A stretch of DNA of 64,000 bases. Source: Rufibacter hautae. GTDB taxonomy: Bacteria; Bacteroidota; Bacteroidia; Cytophagales; Hymenobacteraceae. This document shows, piece by piece, positions 3,084 to 59,273 of the stretch. Position 1 is the stretch's first letter, and each line of letters starts with the position of its first letter. The position numbers were made by a program, and so were the translations under genes. The notes beneath the pieces were generated by a model. It was given only the letters and a program-made list of their open reading frames with translations. It did no database searches and was not told the DNA's origin. Location of the stretch: the NCBI RefSeq assembly GCF_008271695.1, contig NZ_VKKY01000002.1, forward strand, positions 806,001 through 870,000, given 5' to 3'.

Positions 3084-3758
3084 GAGTCGGTACCATGTTT
3101 AGGGCCGATTTGCAGAAAACAGGCCCTAAACGCCGGCTTCGATTTTAGGGATAAGCTCCTGCCTAAGGTGGTGGGTAGATGCCCTTGGTTGGTCTTCTGA
3201 GCCACTAGCCTAAGGGTTCTTTGCTTCTAAACCGTAAACCATTGTTCGTCTGTCGCTTTCCCTTCGAAAAAATAATAGCGTTTTGAGTCCGAAATTTTCA
3301 AACGTCTCTTAAACGAAAATATGCGGCTTAAGATTTTTAAGGCAGTGATCTGCTTTCAGGTGCTTTCTATTAAAATACCCTGAAAACAGGCGAACTGAGC
3401 GAGGGTTAGGTTTGTCTTTGCAGAATCCTATACCGCCATTTACGAGCAGTTTGCACAAGTTTAAGATGAATTAACGGAAGGAAGAATTAAAAATGGGTTG
3501 CTCAATACAGGAAACTCTTGGTTAACGACTGGGCGCCTTGAATATAATTAAGTAAAGTTGATTGTAAGAGGTGTAAACAGCTTTTAGATGAGTTCGACAG
3601 AGGTAAGAAACTAAAGATATGATTGTTATATATTAAGATTTGGGTATTTGATAGAAGATTATCGGTTTTGAAGAGTTGTATTTAAGCAATCCATTAGTCT
3701 ATCTTTACTTTCACTTGTAGATGATTATTCCTATCCAATCCTCATCCAATAAACAAAT
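3084..3758. other. Intergenic region, no gene seen
   Basis: About 675 bases between the polymerase and the first subtilase gene. It starts with a copy of the dispersed palindrome (3097-3131) and then becomes AT-rich, without a convincing open frame. It presumably carries the promoter of the subtilase gene, but I found no good TAnnTTTG match with a paired -33 element. Confidence 0.5.
3097..3131. repeat. Dispersed palindrome, well-conserved copy
   Basis: Ten-base arms GTTTAGGGCC (3097-3106) and GGCCCTAAAC (3122-3131) are perfectly inverted around a 15-base centre containing AGAAAACA. It begins 13 bases after the polymerase stop codon and could act as a terminator. It is one of many related copies in this window. 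Confidence 0.8.
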
Positions 3759-5165
3759 ATGAAGAGAAATTCTTTTACCCTTGGAAGGTTCGCTTTCGCG
3801 GCAAGCCTGTGTTCAGTAACCATGTTCACCGCTTGCGACACGGAGCAACTCATTGAAAACCAGGAAGTAGCTGCGTCTAGCCAATCAGATGCCAGAATAG
3901 CCGGGGAGCAGCGCGTAGTACCCAACGAGGTGTTGGTGAAGTTCAAAGCAGGCGCTTCACAGGAGGCCAGAGCGGCCGTCTTCGCCCGTATTGGAGGCAA
4001 GGTGAAAGAGAAAATCCTGACCAAGACCATGGAACGCCTCGGCGACAAAGAAGGACTGGTACTGGTACATACGCCGCTGGCCGCCTTAGAGGCCTTGAGC
4101 AAAGTAAAAGGCGCGGACATGATTGAATACGCCGAGCCCAACTACCTCTACACCCACCAGGCGACCACGGCAGACCCATATTTCACCCAAAACAACCTTT
4201 GGGGATTGTACGGTGACGCCACCAACCCAAAGAACGTCTACGGCAGCCAGGCAGCTGAAGCCTGGGCCAAAGGGCATATCGGATCTGCCTCGGTCGTGGT
4301 GGGCATCATTGACGAGGGCGTGCAGACAAACCACCCTGACTTGCAGGGCCAGGTATGGGTGAACCCTTATGACAAAGCAGACGGCATTGACAACGACGGC
4401 AACGGCTACATTGACGATGTGAACGGCTGGGACTTCGCGGGCAACAACAAAACCGTCTATGACGGCGGCTCCGGGGGCAGCGTAGATGACCACGGCACGC
4501 ACGTGGCCGGTACCATTGGGGCTAAAAATAACGGCGCCGGGGTAGTGGGCGTGAACTGGAACGTGAAGATGATCTCCTGCAAGTTCCTGGGCCAGACCGG
4601 CGGAACATCGGTAGCCGCTATCAAAGCCCTGGATTACCTCACCGACCTGAAGAACCGTCACGGCATCAACATTGTGGCCAGCAACAATTCTTGGGGCGGC
4701 GGTGGCTACTCCCAAGCCCTGTACGATGCCATCAATCGGGCCAATGCCAAAAGCATCCTTTTTGTGGCGGCAGCCGGCAACGGCGGATCAGACGGAGTAG
4801 GCGATAACAACGATGTTGTAGCCAATTATCCCTCCAACTACAACCTGCCGAACGTCATCGCGGTGGCGGCTATCACTTCTTCGGGAGCGCGGGCTCCTTT
4901 CTCCAATTACGGAGCCACTACGGTAGACATTGGGGCGCCGGGTGCCGCCATTTTCTCCACCACGGCCTACAATACGTACTCAGGCTACAGCGGCACGTCG
5001 ATGGCTACGCCGCACGTGACCGGAGCTGCGGCATTGTACGCGGCTTCTCACCCAGGCTCTACTGCTACGGCTATCAAGAATGCCATCCTGGGCAGCGCTA
5101 CCCCAACGGCATCGCTGGCGGGGAAATGCGTGACCGGCGGTCGCCTGAACATGAGTAATTTCTAA
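3759..5165 (+). CDS. S8 family subtilisin-like serine protease, lipoprotein
   Basis: Predicted envelope-anchored subtilase. Signal peptide II ends in MFTAC with lipidated Cys26, and the mature start CDTEQLIENQE is acidic. An N-terminal propeptide/inhibitor-like region (about 50-130, PNEVLVKFKAG) precedes the catalytic domain. The triad is visible: Asp185 in GIIDEGVQ, His245 in DDHGTHVAG, Ser414 in SGTSMATPH, with an oxyanion Asn in AAAGNGG. At 468 residues it stops right after the catalytic domain, with no T9SS sorting domain. Its close paralogue lies at 7966-9390, with the GH5 gene between them on the other strand. The acidic residues after the Cys recall surface-export signals of other Bacteroidota lipoproteins, which is inference. 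Substrate unknown; general protein turnover is likely. Confidence 0.93.
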   Translation: MKRNSFTLGRFAFAASLCSVTMFTACDTEQLIENQEVAASSQSDARIAGEQRVVPNEVLVKFKAGASQEARAAVFARIGGKVKEKILTKTMERLGDKEGLVLVHTPLAALEALSKVKGADMIEYAEPNYLYTHQATTADPYFTQNNLWGLYGDATNPKNVYGSQAAEAWAKGHIGSASVVVGIIDEGVQTNHPDLQGQVWVNPYDKADGIDNDGNGYIDDVNGWDFAGNNKTVYDGGSGGSVDDHGTHVAGTIGAKNNGAGVVGVNWNVKMISCKFLGQTGGTSVAAIKALDYLTDLKNRHGINIVASNNSWGGGGYSQALYDAINRANAKSILFVAAAGNGGSDGVGDNNDVVANYPSNYNLPNVIAVAAITSSGARAPFSNYGATTVDIGAPGAAIFSTTAYNTYSGYSGTSMATPHVTGAAALYAASHPGSTATAIKNAILGSATPTASLAGKCVTGGRLNMSNF

Positions 5166-5190
5166 ATCTAACCTGTTTCTGTAAAAACAG

Positions 5191-5248
5191 GCCCTAAACG
5201 CAAAAGGCCGTCCTGATACTTTTCAGGACGGCCTTTTGCGTTTAGGGC
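5191..5248. terminator. Very long perfect hairpin, probable bidirectional terminator
   Basis: A 26-base arm at 5191-5216 is perfectly complementary to 5223-5248 around a six-base loop. The outer ends are GCCCTAAAC/GTTTAGGGC, the same sequence as the arm of the dispersed palindrome, and a small hairpin CCTGTTT/AAACAGG (5172-5191) abuts it. It lies between two convergent genes and so may end transcription from both. Confidence 0.85.
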
Positions 5249-5383
5249 GATAGAGCAGGTGCTTCGTTTATAGCACTGGTGATGGTAAAAATTACTTAAA
5301 GCATAGAAGCCTAAATAGCGTCATGGAAGCGAGTTATAGAGGTAGACCTTAAAGCAACCTTGTGTCCACTAGTTAAAACTGCC

Positions 5384-7369
5384 TCACCGCTGCAGCATGA
5401 TTTTTCGGGTAGTGGACTGGCCGTTGGGTTGGATCACTTTCAAGAAATACGCCCCGGCCGGGAAGGCGATGGTAGAAAGCTTTAGCCGCTGGGTGAAAGC
5501 CGCCCGTTGGACCACTGTACCCACGCTGTTGCTGAGCTCCGCGGTGAGTTTGCCGGGCAAGGTGGTTTCCAGGAGCAGATACCCGGCGGCCGGATTGGGG
5601 TACACTTTCAGGTCTGCGTTTTTGATGCCGGGGGAGATGCCCGTCACGGCTCCGGTGAAAACCGAGGTCTCATACACTTTGGCGGTATCCTGGTTGGAGA
5701 TGTAGAGGTTATCGAACCAGAGCTTGGCCTGGCCTAAGGCGCCGTGCTCGGCGGTAATTTCCAAGCGGTCCACGCTAGTCCAGTCAAACTTGCCTTCGGG
5801 GTTAAACCAGGCACCGTCCCAGGAGCCTTTCTCGGTGAAGGAACTCAGGGGGATGCGAACGTGGTGCCAACGGCCATCGAACGGAACCTGATCGGGCGTG
5901 ATGGTGACGCCTGATCGCCAGGGATGGTCCTCAGGGCCTGCTTTGGTGTCCAGGAAGCGCAGGTCAAAGCTCAGGGCGGGGGCAGTGCCCCGGAACAGGA
6001 AATCCACAGCGTACCCTTCCTGTTTCAGTTTGGAGAGGTCCTTATCGGGTTTGAAGTCAAACCCGATGCTGCTGTACTGCTCGGCCCCGGTCCAGGCCAG
6101 GCTGTAGCGGCCGTTGTTGGGTTTCTGGTCGGCGTAAAAATCCAGGGGACCGGTGCCGTAGCTGGCGTTCACAATCCGGGGCCCTATATAATCAGAATAC
6201 ACCGCGAACCCGGCGGCCTCGGGTTGTTTGACGTAAGGCGTCTGCGCCGGCACGGTAAACCCAAGGGCATGTAGCAGCGGAACGTTCAGATCATGCTCGA
6301 AAAGATCATTCCCGCCCGGGTTGAACAGCCCGAAACCGTAGTGGTAGTCCCAACTGGTCCAGGCAATGCCTTTTTCCTCCAGGTAGCGGCGCACCTCGTT
6401 GTACCAGAACGCGCGGTCGGCAGGACGGCTGTAATCCATGAGCACCCCGAACTCGCCGCAGTACACCGGCACCTGGCGGCTCTGCTTGAACTGCGCGGCA
6501 ATGTCAATGAGCTGTTTTACTTTAGCCACGGTGCCATCCTGCGCATAGTTGTTGTACGCGCTTTCCATCCAGGAGCCCCGCAGGCTATAGGGCAGGGGAG
6601 GCATGTCTTGGGCGCGGTACGGAAACGGCATATTGGCCAGGGGCAAGAGGGAAGGTGCCACCCAGGTGGCACCCTGGTGGGTGAACAGGAACGGATCGTA
6701 GAAGTGGAAGGTGTAAATGAGTTTGTTGTCTGGGTACACCGGCATCTGAGCCAGGTTCTGGTAGTTGTTGAAATTGGTGGCGCCCACAATAATGGTATGA
6801 CGGGTATCCTGCCGGCGGATGGCCTGGATAATGCGGCCCTGAATGGCGTTCCATTGCGCGTCTGAAATGCCGTGAGGCTCGTTCAGGATCTCGTAATAAA
6901 TGCGTTCTGACCGGTCTTTATAATGCTGCGCCATTTGGGGCCAGACTTTCTCTAGAATTGTTTCTACCTGGGGCTGGGTATCGGCGATGGGGTCAAAGGA
7001 GTGGTTGTCCAGGATAAGGTGCAGGTTCAGTTCCTCGGCCCAGGTCACCGCCTCATCCAGGAAGGAGAAGAAAAGCGGATTAATGGTGTAGGCTGGGGCG
7101 CCGTTGGTCATGGCGTGCAGGTTAATGGGCAACCGGATGACATCACAACCCAGGCTCTTAATCTGCGCAAAGTCCTGCCGGGTATAGCGGGAAAACTGCA
7201 CCTCCCGGGCACTATTGGCCTGGAACCAACCCGTTAGGTTCACCCCTTTCTTAAAAGGCGCCTCTTGGGCCAGAAGGGGTGAGGCTGCCATACAAAACAA
7301 CAGAAGAAGCATTGCCAGATGCCAAACGGATTGCTGGCCAGGTTTCCGGTTTTTCGGAGTTCGTGTCAT
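5384..7369 (-). CDS. Glycoside hydrolase family 5 enzyme with carbohydrate-binding and T9SS sorting domains
   Basis: Secreted beta-glycanase of the cellulase clan. With the start at 7369 the 661-residue product has a signal peptide ending near SPLLAQ. A GH5 TIM barrel follows (about 40-370), with the acid/base Glu164 in ILNEPHG and the nucleophile Glu306 in YCGEFGV. A beta-sandwich resembling carbohydrate-binding modules comes next (about 385-560), and then a C-terminal Por/T9SS sorting domain (about 585-661, LKVYPNPAAG). The frame extends upstream to 7459, but that would put 30 non-signal residues before a normal signal peptide, so the ATG at 7369 is preferred. The exact substrate (beta-glucan, mannan or xylan) cannot be read from these motifs. 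It is flanked by two subtilase genes on the opposite strand. Confidence 0.9.
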   Translation of the reverse strand: MTRTPKNRKPGQQSVWHLAMLLLLFCMAASPLLAQEAPFKKGVNLTGWFQANSAREVQFSRYTRQDFAQIKSLGCDVIRLPINLHAMTNGAPAYTINPLFFSFLDEAVTWAEELNLHLILDNHSFDPIADTQPQVETILEKVWPQMAQHYKDRSERIYYEILNEPHGISDAQWNAIQGRIIQAIRRQDTRHTIIVGATNFNNYQNLAQMPVYPDNKLIYTFHFYDPFLFTHQGATWVAPSLLPLANMPFPYRAQDMPPLPYSLRGSWMESAYNNYAQDGTVAKVKQLIDIAAQFKQSRQVPVYCGEFGVLMDYSRPADRAFWYNEVRRYLEEKGIAWTSWDYHYGFGLFNPGGNDLFEHDLNVPLLHALGFTVPAQTPYVKQPEAAGFAVYSDYIGPRIVNASYGTGPLDFYADQKPNNGRYSLAWTGAEQYSSIGFDFKPDKDLSKLKQEGYAVDFLFRGTAPALSFDLRFLDTKAGPEDHPWRSGVTITPDQVPFDGRWHHVRIPLSSFTEKGSWDGAWFNPEGKFDWTSVDRLEITAEHGALGQAKLWFDNLYISNQDTAKVYETSVFTGAVTGISPGIKNADLKVYPNPAAGYLLLETTLPGKLTAELSNSVGTVVQRAAFTQRLKLSTIAFPAGAYFLKVIQPNGQSTTRKIMLQR

Positions 7370-50298: not shown

Positions 50299-50326
50299 CT
50301 CAGAACTCAGGACTCAGGACTCAGAA
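50299..50326. repeat. Four tandem heptamers CTCAGRA at the end of the App1 gene
   Basis: CTCAGAA-CTCAGGA-CTCAGGA-CTCAGAA. The stop codon of the phosphatase gene (50314-50316) is inside this array, so it defines the last residues of the protein. Confidence 0.75.
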
Positions 50327-51519
50327 CTAAGCTTTTTCGTGTCTTTACTGATGGGCGCTGGAGCTTGTTGAGTAGGCGTACCGGCCGTATCGCTTTTATC
50401 AATCTCTTTCTGCTCTTCCACTTTCTTGATTTCTTCATAGAAGATAAGCCCTGAATCAGCCGCGTGTTTAGCGGCGGCGGCGGTGTCTTTCACCAGCAGC
50501 ATCTCCACAGTACCTTTTAACTCCTCTGAAATGGTGTTTACTATTTTAGCCCGATCTTCCAGTTCCACATCCCTAATATAAACGCAGATGATGCGGCCGG
50601 GAAACTGCTTGATCACCTCGTGGTAAATAGGGGCGTCCTGCTGGCCGCTGTCCCCGATGAGTACGAAGTTCAGGTGCGGATAGGTGAGCAGGATGTTCTG
50701 GATTTCTTTGAACTTATGGCTCATGTGATCCGCTCCGAAGAACTTGTTCTGCATCAACCCAAAATCACGGAGCAGGAGGGGGCCGGCCGGAATGTCGTTG
50801 ATGTCCAGAAAGTCATGGAGCAGGTCATACATGTTCCAGGGGCTGCTGCTCACGTAAAAGAACGGGTTGTTGCGCTTGCCGTTTCGGCCTAGTTGCAGGG
50901 AACGGTAGAAGGCAGAAACCCCCGCGAACGGCAGCCTGGTACGCGCATTGTTCATGAACGTGTGCTGCGACATTTTGATAATATCGGTGGCCGAGGAAAG
51001 CACAATGGTATCGTCAATGTCTGAGATGATGCCGTACTCGGCATCCGGGGGCGGAACCAGCACGTGGGCTTCTGATTTGATGCCCGGCTCAAAAGAAGAG
51101 ATATCCGCCTTGATCAGTTCTACTTCCATCTCGTGCCAGATATCGTCTAGCTGCAGCGGGGTCTTGGGTTCCAGGTTGATGGTGAAATACCCTTCTTTAT
51201 CGGTCAACACGGTGTGTTCCTGATCCTGGAAAGTAATGCGCAGTTGGGCATTACGGACTTCATCTGTCTCAAACCGGCGGTACATGTTCACCAGGTTCTT
51301 CAAGAGCGTGTCATTATCTGCGGCGGAGGTGATGCCTTGGTTTGAGATGACGCGGCCTTTGAGGTACAGACGGTTCACGGTGCCGTAACTGCGGTAAGAA
51401 ACTATCTGCAAAGGCTTGTAGAGGCCAAACCGGTTCCTGATCCGCTGCATGAAAAAGTCAAACTGGTCATCAGCGTTCTCTATGACTTTGCCCATGGTTT
51501 GTTTGAAATCCTTTGCCAT
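50314..51519 (-). CDS. App1-family phosphatase (DUF2183)
   Basis: A 401-residue protein of the HAD-like App1/phosphatidate phosphatase group. The nucleophile motif DIDDTIVLSS is central (about residue 165), FYVSSSPWNMYDLL is motif II, and VLIGDSGQQD is motif IV. The N-terminal region (YGTVNRLYLKGRVIS) is a beta-domain typical of App1-like proteins. No signal peptide. The C-terminal Ala/Pro/Ser-rich tail is low complexity and ends in the heptamer repeat. Phosphatidate phosphatase activity is known for fungal App1, so lipid phosphatase is a reasonable guess here. Confidence 0.88.
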   Translation of the reverse strand: MAKDFKQTMGKVIENADDQFDFFMQRIRNRFGLYKPLQIVSYRSYGTVNRLYLKGRVISNQGITSAADNDTLLKNLVNMYRRFETDEVRNAQLRITFQDQEHTVLTDKEGYFTINLEPKTPLQLDDIWHEMEVELIKADISSFEPGIKSEAHVLVPPPDAEYGIISDIDDTIVLSSATDIIKMSQHTFMNNARTRLPFAGVSAFYRSLQLGRNGKRNNPFFYVSSSPWNMYDLLHDFLDINDIPAGPLLLRDFGLMQNKFFGADHMSHKFKEIQNILLTYPHLNFVLIGDSGQQDAPIYHEVIKQFPGRIICVYIRDVELEDRAKIVNTISEELKGTVEMLLVKDTAAAAKHAADSGLIFYEEIKKVEEQKEIDKSDTAGTPTQQAPAPISKDTKKLSSES

Positions 51520-51584: not shown

Positions 51585-52451
51585 TTACAGTCCCAGGTTG
51601 CGCTTGAACTCTTGGTACCCTGTGTTGGAGGCTGTGGAGGTTTTGCAGCCCTGTTCCTGCGCCCTGGTCTGGATCTCCCTGATACGGTTAGCCGGAGCAG
51701 GGTGGGTGCTGATGAACTCCGGCGGAACGCCCTTGCTTTCAAGCGACTGCATTTTCTGGAAGAACCCCGCTGCCCCGTCGCACGCGTAAAAATCAGTGGC
51801 ACCCAGGTAGCGCACCGAGTACTCGTCTGCCTCACGCTCATAGTCGCGGCTGAATTTGAGACCTACCAATTGGCCGCCTACTTGGGTAAAAATCCGCTCT
51901 AGGTTGCCGCTCTCATTTCCCAGGATAAGCTTGGTGAGCACGGAGATGCCGTATTGCTTCTGCAGTTGCTTGATGGAGTGCCGCTGGTCTGCGTGGGCAA
52001 TCTCGTGGCCCAGCACGCCCGCTAATTGGTCTTCGTTGTCCAGGTACTTGATAAGCCCGGTGAAAACGTAGATGTGGCCGCCCGGCGTGGCGAAGGCATT
52101 CTGCACCTCAGGGTCATTGATGATTTTCACGTCCCAGGGAAATTCTTCCCGGTAGCTTACCTCACCAGACTCCAAGAGTCGCTCTACAATGGCATCTAGG
52201 TGCGCGTAAGCCGCCCGGGTTCTGGTATTAGAGGAGTTACGGTTCAATAACTGGCCTTTGCTGCCATAGGCCGAGTCTACCTGCTGGGAAACCTGCAAAC
52301 CTAACTGCAGATCATTGTCAATGGGAAAGAACACCGCATCGCCGTTTTTATCGCCGCCGCAACTGGTGAACAGCACGGAAGACAGAAGAAAGAAAGCCAT
52401 TACCAGCCCTGTGTAGGCAGAAGGAGACGCAGTGTGAAATCTTGGTTTCAT
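51585..52451 (-). CDS. M48 family zinc metalloprotease, lipoprotein
   Basis: A 288-residue periplasmic metalloprotease. Lipobox LFTSC (Cys31), then the M48 domain with zinc motif HEIAHADQRHS and a third ligand Glu in YEREADEYSVRYL. It resembles BepA/LoiP-type envelope quality-control proteases but lacks TPR repeats. It is 65 bases downstream of the App1 phosphatase start, same strand, possibly in one operon. Confidence 0.92.
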   Translation of the reverse strand: MKPRFHTASPSAYTGLVMAFFLLSSVLFTSCGGDKNGDAVFFPIDNDLQLGLQVSQQVDSAYGSKGQLLNRNSSNTRTRAAYAHLDAIVERLLESGEVSYREEFPWDVKIINDPEVQNAFATPGGHIYVFTGLIKYLDNEDQLAGVLGHEIAHADQRHSIKQLQKQYGISVLTKLILGNESGNLERIFTQVGGQLVGLKFSRDYEREADEYSVRYLGATDFYACDGAAGFFQKMQSLESKGVPPEFISTHPAPANRIREIQTRAQEQGCKTSTASNTGYQEFKRNLGL

Positions 52452-54311: not shown

Positions 54312-54482
54312 AGGTGTGCAGATTTGGAGATGAGAAGATGTGGAGATTTGAAGGTAAGGATATTCAGAGAATTGTGAATAAATATCAATAACAACATTCA
54401 CATCGAAAGCCGATACCCACAATCTGTAAATTGCCACATCCTCACATTTTCCAATCTACACATCTCCTCATCTTCAAATCTA
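54297..54482. repeat. Inverted AGATTTGAAG-type repeat pair linking two convergent gene ends
   Basis: The left arm (about 54297-54352) is built of TTTGAAG, GAGATG and AGATTTG units; the right arm (about 54434-54482) is their complement (CATCTCCTCATCTTCAAATC). The left arm overlaps the GNAT stop codon and the right arm the stop codon of the next gene. Similar tracts are scattered at gene ends in Bacteroidota. It could fold as a long hairpin terminator. Confidence 0.65.
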
Positions 54483-56072
54483 CAACCCTTCCCGGTCGAA
54501 GGCAGTAATGCTGACGTCACGTGTCTTCTTTACTTTCGTTTCTTTTCCCTTCTCTACCTCAATGCCTTGTTTGGTGTCGTAGACGCGCGTCTTGCGACCC
54601 CAGCCCCGCACAAAGGAATCGTCTTTCACGTCATCTTCGCCCATACCGCCGTAGATGTTCACTTTAATGCCGCTTTTTCCCTTACCCGTGAGGATAAACT
54701 CATCTTCGTCGGCTAAGCCGTGGAGGGAAATGGATTTTGTGTCCGTTTTTTTGAAAATGCGGTCAAACACCAACAGGTTTCTTTCCTTTTCATCACCGGC
54801 AATTTGGGAGATAAGGACCCTTGTATCGCCGTTGTCTAGCCGCTGCACAATGAACTTCTCTTTTTTGTCGGTGCCCGGCACCAGTACGTGCTTGGAAAGG
54901 TGACGGTACATATCACGGGCGATGGCCGGCAACTGTTCCCGTCTGGAGACAAGTTTGCGCTTGATCTCTTCGCCGGTAAGTTGGTAGGCTTGGGTAGGCA
55001 TGAGCTCTACCGATGCATTGATGACACTGTCGGTCAATTGGTTCTGCAACTGCAACGCCAATTGTTCCCATTGCTCAAGCGTTACCTCGTTAAGGCAGCG
55101 CTCATCTATAAAACGGGCATTCTGCAGGTATCCTTTGGTGAAAGCCACCTTGGGGTGGAAAGTCTTCATCTTTTTAAGCGGTGCCCAAGGGCGGCTGAAC
55201 AGCCAAGGCACCAGCCCATCATCAAACTTAAAGAAGGCTTGGTCACGGTCTTTGGGCACCGGGGAGTAGGTGGTCACGTTGCTGGTGTCATATACGGCCC
55301 ATTGCCACTGGCCTTCGTGGCGGTCCCAATCGCCAATGAAAACATCAAACAGCCGCGCTTTGGCAAAGGACAACTGGTCTGGTTGGTGCGAGTGCTGGGA
55401 AAATCTTTTCTCCAAAAATTCTTTGGAGTCTACCAGGTTTTTGGCCTTGCCCAAGTAACCGGTGATGGCTGCCTTTCCCTCGTACTTTTCCTCCAACAGG
55501 AACACGCGGTCCTGGAACTCCGCTGAGCTTTTACCTAAGCCTTTCTCGTCTTTGGGAATGTACACGTAGCGGGGATGGCTGTGCGGGACTTGGGCGCCAC
55601 CCGCCAGGCCAGATACTACCAAAGCGCCATACGGGTGGGCTGCCGAGGTTTGGTCTCTGAGCAGGTTGGTGACGAAGGTTTTTTGAAGGCCTTTTGGCAA
55701 GATATCTTTCGGGTCTTTGTCCACGGAGCGGAGGGCGTACTGTTTTCCCGCCTCATTCTCTAGGGTAAGGCTCGTAGTCTGAAAACCACCTCCCAATTTC
55801 TCAGGACTCAACCCACCGTGCATTTTAGAAATATCGAAAACAGGCAGGGTTACCGGTTGGGCCCACACCTTGCGGTAATGTTTGCCCCACAAGAACGTAT
55901 GCAGAAAACCACGCTGGTAATGTTTGCCCGCCACCACCGTTGCCGAGTCCCATTTCGCATTCCGTTCCTGCTCCACAGGGCCCACCAAGGCTGATTCCTG
56001 GAAATAATTTTTCCGGGCGCAGCCGTAACTCATCAAAATCACGGAGAAAGAAAGGGTCAGTAGTTTCCGCAT
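54480..56072 (-). CDS. Secreted lipoprotein with a kinase-like DxDRH...DRDxAFF pattern
   Basis: A 530-residue protein with lipobox MSYGC (Cys18). The order of features resembles the secreted FAM20/HipA/PI3K-like kinase fold: a Lys in QYALRSVDKDP (about 110-121) after a GGGFQTTSL loop, then GDWDRHEGQW (247-256) with Asp250, Arg251 and His252, then PVPKDRDQAFFKFDDG (271-286) with Asp275 and Asp277. In known kinases DRH gives the catalytic Asp, and a following Asp binds metal. The closest sequences I recall are the central domains of large Bacteroidota proteins between a metallophosphoesterase and a BamA-like barrel. This gene has only the middle part. It is divergent from its paralogue at 56228-57817. 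Kinase activity is inference. Confidence 0.7.
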   Translation of the reverse strand: MRKLLTLSFSVILMSYGCARKNYFQESALVGPVEQERNAKWDSATVVAGKHYQRGFLHTFLWGKHYRKVWAQPVTLPVFDISKMHGGLSPEKLGGGFQTTSLTLENEAGKQYALRSVDKDPKDILPKGLQKTFVTNLLRDQTSAAHPYGALVVSGLAGGAQVPHSHPRYVYIPKDEKGLGKSSAEFQDRVFLLEEKYEGKAAITGYLGKAKNLVDSKEFLEKRFSQHSHQPDQLSFAKARLFDVFIGDWDRHEGQWQWAVYDTSNVTTYSPVPKDRDQAFFKFDDGLVPWLFSRPWAPLKKMKTFHPKVAFTKGYLQNARFIDERCLNEVTLEQWEQLALQLQNQLTDSVINASVELMPTQAYQLTGEEIKRKLVSRREQLPAIARDMYRHLSKHVLVPGTDKKEKFIVQRLDNGDTRVLISQIAGDEKERNLLVFDRIFKKTDTKSISLHGLADEDEFILTGKGKSGIKVNIYGGMGEDDVKDDSFVRGWGRKTRVYDTKQGIEVEKGKETKVKKTRDVSITAFDREGL

Positions 56073-56227
56073 AGCCTAATATTAATTCTTTGCCATACAG
56101 AAACTGTACCATAAAGGTTTTCTTTCTCACCTTTCTTTGAATAGAGGCTCATTTTACATTTTGAGCCCTCATCCAGCAGGGCAGTTGTAAAACATAGAAC
56201 CTTTGTTTTAGGTATAAATACGCACCT

Positions 56228-57817
56228 ATGGTACAGAATTTAACTAAACAAAAGGGAATCAGTTATTTAAGATGCTGCTGCCTTTGGCTTCTCACGTTTT
56301 TGTTTTTCCCAACCGCCCAGGCAGCACCAACTTCTGCGGATTCCACCGTGATGGTGGCGGCTGGCAAGCATTACCTCAGAAGTGGGTTCCATAGGTTTTG
56401 GTGGGGCAAGCATTACCGCAAAGTGTGGGCTGAGCCAGTAGCCGCTCCCTACTTCTGGATAAGCCAGTTTCAGGGTGGGGTAATGCCTTTGAAGGAAGGA
56501 GGGAGTTTCCAGACGAAGAACCTGCGCCTCGTGGATTCCGCCGGCCGTGAATACGTGCTGCGCTCGGTAGACAAAGACCCATCAAAGGCCTTGCCCAAAA
56601 ACCTGCAGAAGACGTTTATAGCCAAGCTCATGCGCGATCAGACCAGCGTGATCCATCCTTATGGAGCCTTCATTGTGCCGGCGCTGGCCCAAGCCGCTGG
56701 CGTGTATCATACTAATCCAAGGTTGGTGTACATCGCGGATGACCCTGCCTTAGGTGAATTCAGGAAAGATTTTGCCCACATGCTGGCCTTGTTAGAAGAG
56801 CGACCGGATGGCAATTGGGAGAACCAGCAGAGTTTCGGGAAACCGCAGAACATCTTAAGCTCCAGAAACGCTTTTCAGGAACTGATCAAAAGTTCGGACT
56901 ACCAGGTGGACCGCCAACGGTATCTTCTGTCCAGGTTGTTTGATATGTGGCTCAGCGATTGGAGCCGGCGCGAGGACCAGTGGCGCTGGTCAGTATTCAA
57001 GAAAGGCGAAGTAACAGAACTGGCTCCTATTCCGCGTGACCGGGACCATGCTTTCTTTAAATTCAATGACGGGGCTTTAACAAAGTTGGTAAGCGTTATT
57101 AAGCCCAATTACCAAAGTTTCGATAAAACCATAAAGGAGCGGAATGTGAAAGGGCTCATCAGAAGCTCCTCGCAGATGGATGGTTTCTTCCTGGGCTATT
57201 TAACCCAAGACGATTTCCAAAAAGCGGCCCTGAAGCTGCAGGAAAACCTGACGGATCAAGTGATTGAAAAGGCGCTGCAAGGTTGGTCTCCGCAAATCAG
57301 GGAATTGTCTTCCCAGGAGTTTGGCGCCAAATTGAAATCGCGGCGGGATGACCTGCCTAAAGCCGCTGCTACCTTTTACCGAATCTTGAACCAAGAAGTG
57401 TTGCTGCCCGGCACCGATGCTCCAGATTCGTTCCAGTTGAATTTCAGGGAAGACGGCAGTTTGCTGGTGCAGCACTTTGCCGTGCATAAAAACAAAAAGC
57501 GAACCCTTATCCATGAAAAGGTTTTCCTGCCATCAGAGACTAAGAAGCTTTCCATCTTTGGCCTTGGAGACGAAGATACGTTTGTGCTGCAGGGCAAAGG
57601 GAATAACAAGATAATGGTGCAGCTGTACGGCGGGGAAGGAACCGATGGGCTCTCTGCCAACCCTTCTTTTCAGCTCAGCGGCCAGAAGATCCTCTTGTTT
57701 GATGAGGAAGACGGCAACGATTACCCGAAGACCAAAGGCGTGGAGCGCGAGGAGTACACCCCAGCCGCGCAGGAGTTCAACGGAACCGGATGGCTACTGA
57801 GGCACCGTCTGCATTAA
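56228..57817 (+). CDS. Secreted paralogue of the kinase-like protein, altered DxDRH motif
   Basis: A 529-residue protein with a cleavable signal peptide (ends PTAQA) rather than a lipobox. It is collinear with the protein encoded at 54480-56072: GKHYRKVWAEP, REYVLRSVDKDP, LMRDQTSVIHPYGA and PIPRDRDHAFFKFND are shared. The catalytic-like segment reads DWSRREDQW (244-252), so Asp and His of DWDRHEGQW are Ser246 and Arg248, while DRDHAFF (271-277) is kept. If the family are kinases, this copy may be a regulatory pseudokinase. It is transcribed divergently across 155 bases. Confidence 0.7.
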   Translation: MVQNLTKQKGISYLRCCCLWLLTFLFFPTAQAAPTSADSTVMVAAGKHYLRSGFHRFWWGKHYRKVWAEPVAAPYFWISQFQGGVMPLKEGGSFQTKNLRLVDSAGREYVLRSVDKDPSKALPKNLQKTFIAKLMRDQTSVIHPYGAFIVPALAQAAGVYHTNPRLVYIADDPALGEFRKDFAHMLALLEERPDGNWENQQSFGKPQNILSSRNAFQELIKSSDYQVDRQRYLLSRLFDMWLSDWSRREDQWRWSVFKKGEVTELAPIPRDRDHAFFKFNDGALTKLVSVIKPNYQSFDKTIKERNVKGLIRSSSQMDGFFLGYLTQDDFQKAALKLQENLTDQVIEKALQGWSPQIRELSSQEFGAKLKSRRDDLPKAAATFYRILNQEVLLPGTDAPDSFQLNFREDGSLLVQHFAVHKNKKRTLIHEKVFLPSETKKLSIFGLGDEDTFVLQGKGNNKIMVQLYGGEGTDGLSANPSFQLSGQKILLFDEEDGNDYPKTKGVEREEYTPAAQEFNGTGWLLRHRLH

Positions 57818-57822
57818 GGTTC

Positions 57823-57857
57823 GTTTAGGAACTGTTTTCAAGAAAACAGGCTTAAAT
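57823..57857. repeat. Dispersed palindrome copy at the end of two convergent genes
   Basis: GTTTAGGAACTGTTTTC-AA-GAAAACAGGCTTAAAT, with a near-perfect core. It begins 5 bases after the stop of the kinase-like gene and contains the stop codon of the exonuclease gene (57852-57854). Confidence 0.8.
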
Positions 57858-59273
57858 CGCGGCGTTAACATCTTCTGAAAACACCAGAACTTTGTCCTGA
57901 TGTTTCGTGCGCATGTAGCCTCTGATGATCTGCTGCGTGTCTTTGTTGTCATTGTAGTACTTGATCACGCCTTTGAAATCCTCCAGAGAACTGGCGCTGA
58001 ACGACTCATCAAAATACCCGAAGCCCAGGTAACGGCCATTGTCTACCACCACCACTGACTTCTCCTCGGGGCTGCGGCCCTTCCCGATGATGACGAATGT
58101 ATCGTAGTCGTACTTGAACGCGTCAATAGACTCAATCACGCGCTGGTTGTAGTCCTCCGGCGATTCTTTGCCCACGCAGGCGCCTTTGCATTGGTGTACC
58201 TGGTAATCAAAGCAAGGACCATTGGATTTGTACAGGTCGCACAGTTTCTGGCAGAGGTTGTACTTGGCCACGCGGTTGTAAAGAAAGTTCTTCGCCTGGA
58301 ACTGATTGGACATGGTGAGCAGCGGCGGAACCTCGGTCTTGGCCTTCTGGAAGGTGAGCCGCAGGTAGCCTTCCTGATCGTAGTAAGAATAAATGCCCGA
58401 GTGGTACACGCTTCGGCGCTGGGCGCGGTTGTAGAAAGGCTTCCGCTTCTTGATCTCATCAGACTCAAAAAGCAAAGCCACTAACTCACTGCCCGTGCGC
58501 TCATAGGTAATGCTGGCGATGCGGTTCTTGAACTCTATGGACTTCCGGCTCTTGAAATCAATGTTGAAGTGCTGGATGATGCGCTTCCGAATGCTCTTGC
58601 TTTTGCCCACGTAAATGATCTCGCCATTCTCGTCATGGAAGTAATAGACGCCAGCCTCCAGGGGCAAAGCATCTACCATGTCCCTGGAAATGGCCGGTGG
58701 CAGGAGCGAGGTTTTGATCTCCTTTGAGATGGAAGAGGTCTCCAGCAGTTTATCGTCTTGGGAGTCATTCACCTTTTTCTCATCGATTTTCAGCAAACGG
58801 TCAAAAAGGATGGCCGTGGCCTCGGCATCTCCTATGGCGCGGTGCCGCATCTGCAGCGGAATGTCAATGCTCTTGCAGAGTTTGCCCAAGCTGTAAGACG
58901 GAAGCCCCGGCATAAGTTTGCGGCTCAGTCGAACGGTGCACAGGGTCTTGCGCTGGAAAGTAAAGCCAAGGTCGGCAAACTCTTTCTTCACGAAGGAATA
59001 ATCAAACCGCACGTTGTGGGCCACAAACACGTTGCCCTCGGTGATCTGCACAATCTGCTTGGCCACCTCATGGAATTTAGGCGCGTCTTTCACCATCTCA
59101 TCGGTGATGCCGGTAAGCTGCGAGATGAAGAAGGGAATAGGCCGGCCCGGGTTGATGAGGCTATGAAACTGGTCTACTACCTGGTTCCCGTCATGGATGA
59201 AAATCGCAATCTCGGTAATCCGATCTTCTGAGGGCTGACCACCGGTAGTCTCGATATCTATAATGGCGTACAC
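57852..59273 (-). CDS. Exonuclease (DnaQ-like) fused to a GIY-YIG domain
   Basis: A 473-residue protein. The N-terminal 3'-5' exonuclease domain (about 1-165) has Exo I IIDIETTGG, Exo II VAHNVRFDYSF and Exo III HRAIGDAEATA. A GIY-YIG domain (about 205-285) has GVYYFHDENGEIIYVGKSKS. The C-terminal part is UvrC/Cho-like, with two CxxxC-type pairs (CQKLCDLY, CKGACVG). This is a known DnaQ-Cho type fusion, probably in DNA repair as an alternative to UvrC. The start is GTG at 59273. Confidence 0.93.
   Translation of the reverse strand: MYAIIDIETTGGQPSEDRITEIAIFIHDGNQVVDQFHSLINPGRPIPFFISQLTGITDEMVKDAPKFHEVAKQIVQITEGNVFVAHNVRFDYSFVKKEFADLGFTFQRKTLCTVRLSRKLMPGLPSYSLGKLCKSIDIPLQMRHRAIGDAEATAILFDRLLKIDEKKVNDSQDDKLLETSSISKEIKTSLLPPAISRDMVDALPLEAGVYYFHDENGEIIYVGKSKSIRKRIIQHFNIDFKSRKSIEFKNRIASITYERTGSELVALLFESDEIKKRKPFYNRAQRRSVYHSGIYSYYDQEGYLRLTFQKAKTEVPPLLTMSNQFQAKNFLYNRVAKYNLCQKLCDLYKSNGPCFDYQVHQCKGACVGKESPEDYNQRVIESIDAFKYDYDTFVIIGKGRSPEEKSVVVVDNGRYLGFGYFDESFSASSLEDFKGVIKYYNDNKDTQQIIRGYMRTKHQDKVLVFSEDVNAAI

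Follow-up and report, generated by a model that had tools for sequence, protein, structure and literature searches.

A divergent pair of kinase-like genes

The soil bacterium Rufibacter hautae (Bacteroidota; Hymenobacteraceae) carries two neighbouring, divergently oriented genes, here called P1 and P2, within a 64,000-nucleotide stretch of contig NZ_VKKY01000002.1 (positions 806,001 to 870,000, assembly GCF_008271695.1; hereafter the window). Their products are predicted to be exported, and none of the domain libraries searched has an entry for the family to which they belong (Table 1). Both open reading frames (ORFs) were found on opposite strands where the initial annotation of this DNA had placed them, and the four shared segments that it listed (GKHYRKVW, LRSVDKDP, DWxRxExQW and PxPxDRDxAFF) were located in both proteins, GKHYRKVW at residues 63-70 of P1 and 60-67 of P2 and LRSVDKDP at 114-121 and 111-118. 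Its numbering of Asp250, His252 and Asp277 is correct for P1, and the lipobox of P1 and signal peptide of P2 could likewise be recognised by eye. Since the two proteins align across 487 columns with 40% identity (E 3e-120), the shared segments reflect homology and not chance motifs.

Table 1. Features of the P1/P2 locus, in window coordinates. P1 and P2 residues are numbered in their own frames; pLDDT, predicted local distance difference test; ATP, adenosine triphosphate.
Feature	Position	Strand	Basis
P1, kinase-like lipoprotein, predicted catalytic residues intact, 530 amino acids	54480..56072	-	ORF, AlphaFold, Foldseek
P2, predicted pseudokinase paralogue, 529 amino acids	56228..57817	+	ORF, AlphaFold, Foldseek
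P1/P2 intergenic region, 155 bp between divergent start codons	56073..56227	.	ORF positions
P1 signal sequence and lipobox MSYGC (Cys18)	56019..56072	-	Read by eye; pattern count
P2 signal peptide, predicted cut between AQA and A, after residue 32	56228..56323	+	By eye; residues 1-32 pLDDT <50
P1 GGGFQT 94-99, candidate glycine-rich loop	55776..55793	-	Gly95 in 207/207 rows
P1 LRSVDKDP 114-121, invariant Arg115 and Lys119 (candidate ATP Lys)	55710..55733	-	207/207; directly after strand 111-116
P1 Glu194 in strand 189-195, candidate hinge position	55491..55493	-	207/207; secondary structure of model
P1 catalytic loop DWDRHEGQW 248-256 (predicted)	55305..55331	-	Asp250 aligned with CotH and HipA catalytic-loop Asp (hhalign)
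P1 PVPKDRDQAFF 271-281, candidate metal-binding Asp275/Asp277	55230..55262	-	207/207; aligned with CotH IP-x-D-x-D
P1 C-terminal all-beta domain, residues 395-516; precedes barrel in fused relatives	54525..54890	-	Model, alignment
P2 GGSFQT 91-96, loop Gly to Ser	56498..56515	+	Ser in 46/46 P2-like rows
P2 Lys116 (= P1 Lys119), retained	56573..56575	+	44/44 distinct P2-like
P2 catalytic loop DWSRREDQW 244-252, altered, with Ser246 for Asp and Arg248 for His	56957..56983	+	P2-like alignment
P2 PIPRDRDHAFF 267-277, metal-site DRD retained	57026..57058	+	44/44 distinct P2-like

Five copies of the family are present in the host genome, namely P1, P2, a further short copy (L002, 538 amino acids) and two that form the middle of long proteins of 1256 and 1219 amino acids (L003 and L005). 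The closest named record is that of Rufibacter sp. XAAS-G3-1 (L006; 82% identity), records from the same genome or nearly identical to it having possibly been excluded. A scan of contigs matched at least 592 stretches, 572 of them encoding a relative; the best 80 were kept, and the titles of these 80 are Bacteroidota. Whole-genome scans, which covered the relatives of the window and its own phylum, found the domain in 28/39 genomes (search of relatives) and 113/296 (search of the phylum), with the host genome counted in both.

Conservation, predicted fold and kinship

The family set comprised 219 ORFs in 164 loci and gave 207 distinct rows, a few of which are truncated duplicates arising where loci overlap. 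Positions invariant in 207/207 rows include Gly63, Arg67, Gly95, Arg115, Lys119, Pro147, Glu194, Arg240, Asp243, Asp248, Trp249, Arg251, Trp256, Pro273, Asp275, Arg276 and Asp277 (P1 numbering, as for all alignment positions below), and Asp140 is conserved in 206/207. Position 250 is Asp in 159 rows (D type), Ser in 46 (P2 type) and Gly in 2. At position 252, 165 rows have His and 42 have Arg, and His252 accompanies Asp250 in 159/159 rows. Gly96 is found in 144/159 D-type rows. The alignment of homologues that had been proposed as a check on the kinase-like residues thus bears them out, with Lys119, Asp248, Arg251, Asp275 and Asp277 kept throughout and Asp250 replaced only in the P2 type and the two Gly rows. 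A second set of 192 distinct rows, partly wider, contains individual divergent rows that depart from otherwise invariant positions: Glu194 is replaced by Gln in one row and by Pro in another, there are two exceptions each at Asp275 and Asp277, and one at Asp248.

A plainly degenerate copy, L201, is among these divergent rows. It encodes 887 amino acids (3452-6112) beside an intact copy, without a match to the N-lobe and without catalytic motifs, and is possibly a second, independent inactive partner. Glu194 is replaced by Gln or Pro in D-type copies at L195 (3060-4730) and L198 (3208-4452). For several members of 402-429 amino acids (L197, L198, L202, L209 and L284) the model match ends after about 350 of the 470 positions, a hint that the kinase part may exist as an independent unit, separate from the C-terminal beta domain.

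AlphaFold models, built from an 86-row alignment, had a pLDDT of 89.5 and a predicted template modelling score of 0.89 for P1, and 89.9 and 0.88 for P2. The best matches of both models in the PDB were kinases, with a Foldseek probability of 1.00. For P1, all 15 matches at E <=0.001 were kinases, comprising CtkA (3akl, the best at E 8e-7), HipA (4pu4), PI4KIIalpha and PI4KIIbeta, 7vkb and RIO2; for P2, the 9 matches at this threshold were also all kinases, including CtkA (best 3akj, 1.6e-5), PI4KIIalpha and COQ8A. The matches to PI4KII and RIO2 lay at E of about 1e-4 to 2e-3. Structure prediction and fold search thus agree with the kinase-like fold put forward in the initial annotation, atypical kinases being the best matches at moderate similarity, and it is very probable from the models that P1 and P2 adopt a kinase fold, the match being one of fold only. 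As for the more specific likeness to FAM20, HipA and PI3K kinases suggested there, HipA-like and PI4KII matches were recovered and kinship with FAM20 was not.

Remote kinship was examined with sequence profiles. Searches of 86 members against Pfam gave scattered weak matches (best E 0.008, with no family matched by more than 2 members among the best 25 of 35 families) and those against NCBIfam were similar (best E 0.009, at most 7 members, for TIGR02256 with a best E of 0.032, among the best 25 of 27 families); these were taken as chance. CotH (PF08757) was not among the best 25 of the 35 Pfam families matched by the 86 members at E <=1, and sequence searches of the PDB, with single sequences and with a profile, gave only matches at E 0.49 or worse. 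A search for Fam20C in 99 genomes found none, but its controls matched nowhere either, so that it says nothing on absence.

An HHalign comparison of 229 family rows (103 after filtering) with 28 of 30 CotH loci, two short loci having been dropped, gave P 4.7e-4 and a probability of 32% over the catalytic core. By comparison, six unrelated control alignments from the same loci gave P 0.037-0.56, and CotH against HipA, an accepted pair, gave P 0.0015 by the same method. The HipA alignment consisted of 25 of 30 HipA proteins, those with the D-x-H-x-KN pattern. In the alignments with CotH and HipA, the latter not significant, Asp250 is matched to the catalytic-loop Asp and Asp248 to the Asn before it, and in that with CotH the DRD at 275-277 coincides with the IP-x-D-x-D stretch; presumably these positions are the catalytic and metal Asp residues of CotH and HipA. 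The profile comparison suggested at the outset returned a faint CotH signal and no significant one for HipA. The family appears, weakly, closest in sequence to CotH; its architecture is new, and it is placed inside the atypical kinase fold and outside CotH, HipA and Fam20C as curated.

A predicted pseudokinase paired with D-type copies

Only three positions are more than 90% fixed in D-type rows and mostly replaced in P2-like rows, namely 96, 250 and 252. In the P2-like rows Gly96 and Asp250 have each become Ser (46/46) and His252 has become Arg in 42/46. After de-duplication 44 distinct P2-like proteins remain, with Ser at 250 in 44/44 and, at 252, Arg in 39 and His in 5. The remaining nucleotide and metal residues (Lys119, Asp140, Glu194, Asp248, Asp275 and Asp277) are kept in all 44, and Gln255 in 39 (Asn in 5).

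For a quick likelihood tree of 183 of the 219 rows, rooted at the midpoint, columns 250 and 252 were masked and column 96 was not. The tree places 39 P2-like rows on one branch with a Shimodaira-Hasegawa-like approximate likelihood ratio test support of 99, and 52 short D-type rows, P1-like and L002-like, in another group with support of 100. As P1-like and P2-like rows sit on separate deep branches, the pair does not resemble a recent tandem duplication. Two Chitinophagales kinase-barrel proteins (L051 and L055) have Gly at 250 with His252 kept and fall elsewhere in the tree, which makes theirs a predicted loss of the catalytic Asp separate from that of P2.

A D-type copy lies within 4 kb of each of the 44 distinct P2-like genes, divergent in 39 cases and tandem in 5; the set is biased, as it consists mostly of loci retrieved by a scan led by P1 or picked as pairs. 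The five tandem loci carry the Ser/His/Asn form, four of them in Pontibacter and one in a genome of the same family as the window. A less biased set of 25 whole genomes of the family (G000-G024) contains 22 with the P2 type, and in 22/22 a D-type copy is found no more than 4 kb from it; other short copies fetched and typed in this set are of D type. No P2 type was found among the copies typed in the other three (G017, G018 and G023), some long fused copies being outside the typed set. A DNA pattern for the Ser/Arg/Gln loop, which is blind to the Asn form, was found in 4/395 genomes, all of the same family and all beside a P1-type copy. D-type copies without P2 occur, and none of the loci examined has a P2 without a nearby D-type copy. 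The initial annotation had proposed an active kinase with a pseudokinase partner; the lost Asp, the single clade and the pairing in 44/44 loci and 22/22 genomes make this model, in which catalysis is predicted, well supported in its anatomy.

Fused relatives, topology and a proposed envelope role

Many relatives of P1 and P2 are considerably longer, with most matches of the phylum search lying in open frames of at least 800 amino acids. In L003 the family domain lies between a metallophosphatase of calcineurin type, whose match to PF00149 is above cut-off, and an Omp85-type barrel at the C-terminus, whose match to PF01103 (E 0.0015) is below it; for L005 the barrel scores above cut-off and a metallophosphatase was not found by Pfam. 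Counted by regular expressions, a rough measure, at least four of five metallophosphatase motif patterns are present in 70 of the 97 distinct fused sequences longer than 1000 amino acids and none in 13, of which 10 belong to the same family as the window and include L005. In L005 (397-4056) and similar copies of that family, none of the five motif patterns survives in the metallophosphatase part, and the kinase motif is intact. This L005 copy is divergent from the third short copy in the genome (L207). At L283 (957-4495, genome G001) a fused gene is split over two overlapping frames, indicating a broken gene or a sequencing error.

Neighbouring genes were scored at 139 loci, 81 with a copy of at least 780 amino acids and 58 without. 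Near the 81 fused-copy loci, HD-PycTM-type genes were found at 53, SdiA-regulated/phytase-like genes at 28, SixA-type phosphatases at 22, PPK1 at 20 and CotH at 5; at least one of PPK1, SixA and HD is near 54/81, including one locus of the host genome. These loci were not de-duplicated, their flanks vary, and two of them (L199 and L200) supplied the marker queries. None of the marker genes was found in the 58 loci without a fused copy, which are mostly from one family and thus not independent, and on this count (0/58) the idea that the P1/P2 locus is itself linked to polyphosphate was discarded.

The host genome has one such group (L212 2083-11581; C1:1104082-1113580), in which SixA, PPK1, metallophosphatase-kinase-Omp85 and HD-PycTM genes lie together; Pfam confirmed the SixA-type protein (PF00300), PPK1 (four PPK domains) and HD plus PycTM, and parts of the group recur in other Bacteroidota. 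Elsewhere, in three genomes, CotH, a PAP2 phosphatase and a Porin_O_P-type gene are near a barrel-fused copy (L199 4002-8886, L200 3090-8705 and L205 1335-7130), and true CotH genes also stand beside barrel-fused members in L035 and L036.

A recognisable lipobox, by a rough pattern, is present in 27/58 short D-type rows, 33/97 fused rows, 10/46 P2-like rows and 0/6 two-part fused rows. Acidic residues after the lipobox Cys mark surface export in Bacteroidota, and 0/70 lipobox rows have two or more just after the Cys. Together with the C-terminal barrel of the fused copies, this favours a periplasmic side for the family domain.

To our knowledge, kinases acting outside the bacterial cytoplasm are few. 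We lean modestly towards a reading in which P1 is an envelope kinase, P2 its pseudokinase partner and the family phosphate-linked. P1 would be a lipoprotein, probably of the outer membrane and facing the periplasm, and would transfer a phosphoryl group to an envelope substrate by means of Lys119, Asp250 and a metal held at Asp275/Asp277; catalysis by P1 is rather probable. P2 would be an exported pseudokinase that keeps its nucleotide and metal residues and lacks the catalytic Asp and His. It could bind nucleotide or substrate and control P1, most likely by binding P1 or the substrate of P1 and thereby controlling or presenting it, as FAM20A does for FAM20C, and a role as pseudokinase regulator is a slightly favoured reading of P2. 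In the fused relatives, a kinase-like domain and a phosphatase would be tethered to the outer membrane, and the position of the domain between metallophosphatase and Omp85 barrel, often near PPK1, SixA and HD-PycTM genes, makes phosphate- or polyphosphate-linked phosphorylation in the envelope probably the job of the family. For P1 and P2, we infer the polyphosphate link by carrying it over from the fused copies, just as we infer catalysis, the periplasmic side, a P1-P2 complex, the donor and the substrate.

Comparison with known systems places P1 and P2 among Bacteroidota exported proteins of kinase fold that are distinct from, and probably related to, the CotH/HipA/PI4KII group. CotH, an atypical kinase, shares the order of a catalytic-loop Asp followed by IP-x-D-x-D, with a weak local profile match over that part, and its true genes lie within 2 kb of a fused copy at the five loci mentioned; it differs in that P1 and P2 match no CotH model and that the family has a DWDRHxxQW loop, a C-terminal beta domain and metallophosphatase/Omp85 fusions. 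HipA, CtkA and HipT (PF07804) provide the best fold matches, and their N-x-D-x-H-x-KN loop is in register with D-W-D-R-H-x-x-Q, whereas their N- and C-terminal parts are different, and HipA is a cytoplasmic toxin. PI4KII and RIO2 are alike in fold only, with no Pfam or PDB sequence match and another architecture and location. The likeness to FAM20A/FAM20C is an analogy of working, an active kinase and a catalytically impaired paralogue both outside the cytosol; the altered residues of FAM20A differ from those of P2.

Several observations weigh against this interpretation. The fold likeness is moderate, with a target-normalised TM score of at most 0.53 for both models and root-mean-square deviations of 7.9-11.4 Angstrom in the 15 best matches of P1 and 9.2-16.7 in the 9 best of P2, and neither CotH nor FAM20C is among the best 50 Foldseek matches of 469 (P1) and 471 (P2). 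No Pfam or NCBIfam model matches P1 or P2, including CotH PF08757, HipA PF07804 and Fam20C PF06702. The profile likeness to CotH is weak, falling to P 0.0036 and a probability of 9% with the smaller 86-row profile, and that to HipA is not significant (P 0.27). Simple CotH motif patterns matched few CotH ORFs, so that it is the hhalign alignments that carry the motif reading. The contrast between a lipoprotein P1 and a soluble P2 is not constant, given the P2-like rows with a lipobox, P2 keeps Asp248 as a possible alternative base, and neither gene is beside PPK1, SixA or HD. Finally, ATP is not expected in the periplasm, and an exported kinase is left without an obvious supply of it.

This scarcity of ATP outside the cytoplasm means that the kinase domain may draw phosphate from polyphosphate, although a polyphosphate-driven reaction is doubtful at present. 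Equally speculative is an undescribed Bacteroidota envelope phosphorylation system in which a phosphatase-kinase-Omp85 protein is encoded together with PPK1 and SixA and is complemented by free exported kinases with pseudokinase partners of their own, possibly with polyphosphate as donor and with exported Bacteroidota proteins such as the gingipains as substrates. If the envelope pair is as proposed, it would be a tractable model of how dead kinases control live ones, and a phosphatase and kinase-like domain on one outer-membrane protein near polyphosphate genes would make the question of a non-ATP donor testable.

The substrate could also be a small molecule, lipid or glycan, for instance lipid A or exopolysaccharide, rather than a protein. 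PI4KII is among the best fold matches, weaker matches include the lipopolysaccharide kinase WaaP and antibiotic kinases, and the PAP2 lipid phosphatase and porin-type genes adjoin some barrel copies, but the best structural matches, HipA and CtkA, are protein kinases, and this alternative is tentative. Less probable is that both proteins are active with different chemistry, P2 using Asp248 or acting as a nucleotidyl transferase or nucleotide hydrolase. The full retention of its other nucleotide and metal residues would suit such an activity, and the loss of Asp250 and Gly96, being fixed across the P2 clade, looks like remodelling and not decay; however, it is Asp250 and not Asp248 that aligns with the catalytic-loop Asp of CotH and (not significantly) HipA, and P2 was always accompanied by a nearby D-type copy in the loci examined. 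It is rather unlikely, too, that neither protein is an enzyme and that the kinase fold is a ligand- or polyphosphate-binding module aiding an outer-membrane machine: export without periplasmic ATP and the middle position between phosphatase and barrel in many relatives would fit, but plain binding would not need a His252 that is constant in Asp250 rows or the rest of the catalytic set in 207/207. Lastly, the view of P2 as a decaying duplicate, paired with P1 through an accident of tandem duplication, is hardly credible. Although P2 shows more non-synonymous change than P1 in 9/9 relatives, dN/dS (the ratio of non-synonymous to synonymous rates) for the window against L006 is 0.082 in P1 and 0.088 in P2 (synonymous sites being near saturation there, and saturated for at least one gene in the other eight relatives), P2 frames are open in four named genera, and the two types occupy separate deep branches. 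A pseudogene reading of P2 was rejected on this selection together with synteny.

Portions of a Legionella pan-kinome survey describe novel kinase-like families identified by a comparable approach, some clustering with FAM20/CotH, and pseudokinases without the catalytic Asp; Lani_1194 of that survey differs in being fused to a methyltransferase, and no phosphatase-barrel fusion was seen in those portions (PMC9758233). No published description of the family or of the phosphatase-kinase-barrel-PPK1 arrangement was among the matches listed; preprints and most subscription papers were outside the scope, and novelty in print is unproven. According to part of a 2023 review of type IX secretion, the kinase(s) phosphorylating the gingipains of Porphyromonas gingivalis had not been identified (PMC10202324). 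The P1/P2 family would be a candidate type for such kinases.

In the window, genes for an APP1-type phosphatidate phosphatase (50314-51519) and an M48 peptidase (51585-52451) precede the P1/P2 pair, and an APP1-like ORF near the pair was also recognised by eye in Hymenobacter and Adhaeribacter. On the other side, P2 is adjoined by a gene for an exonuclease and GIY-YIG protein (57852-59273), and a similar ORF, again judged by eye, lies near the pair in Hymenobacter (L013 and L018).

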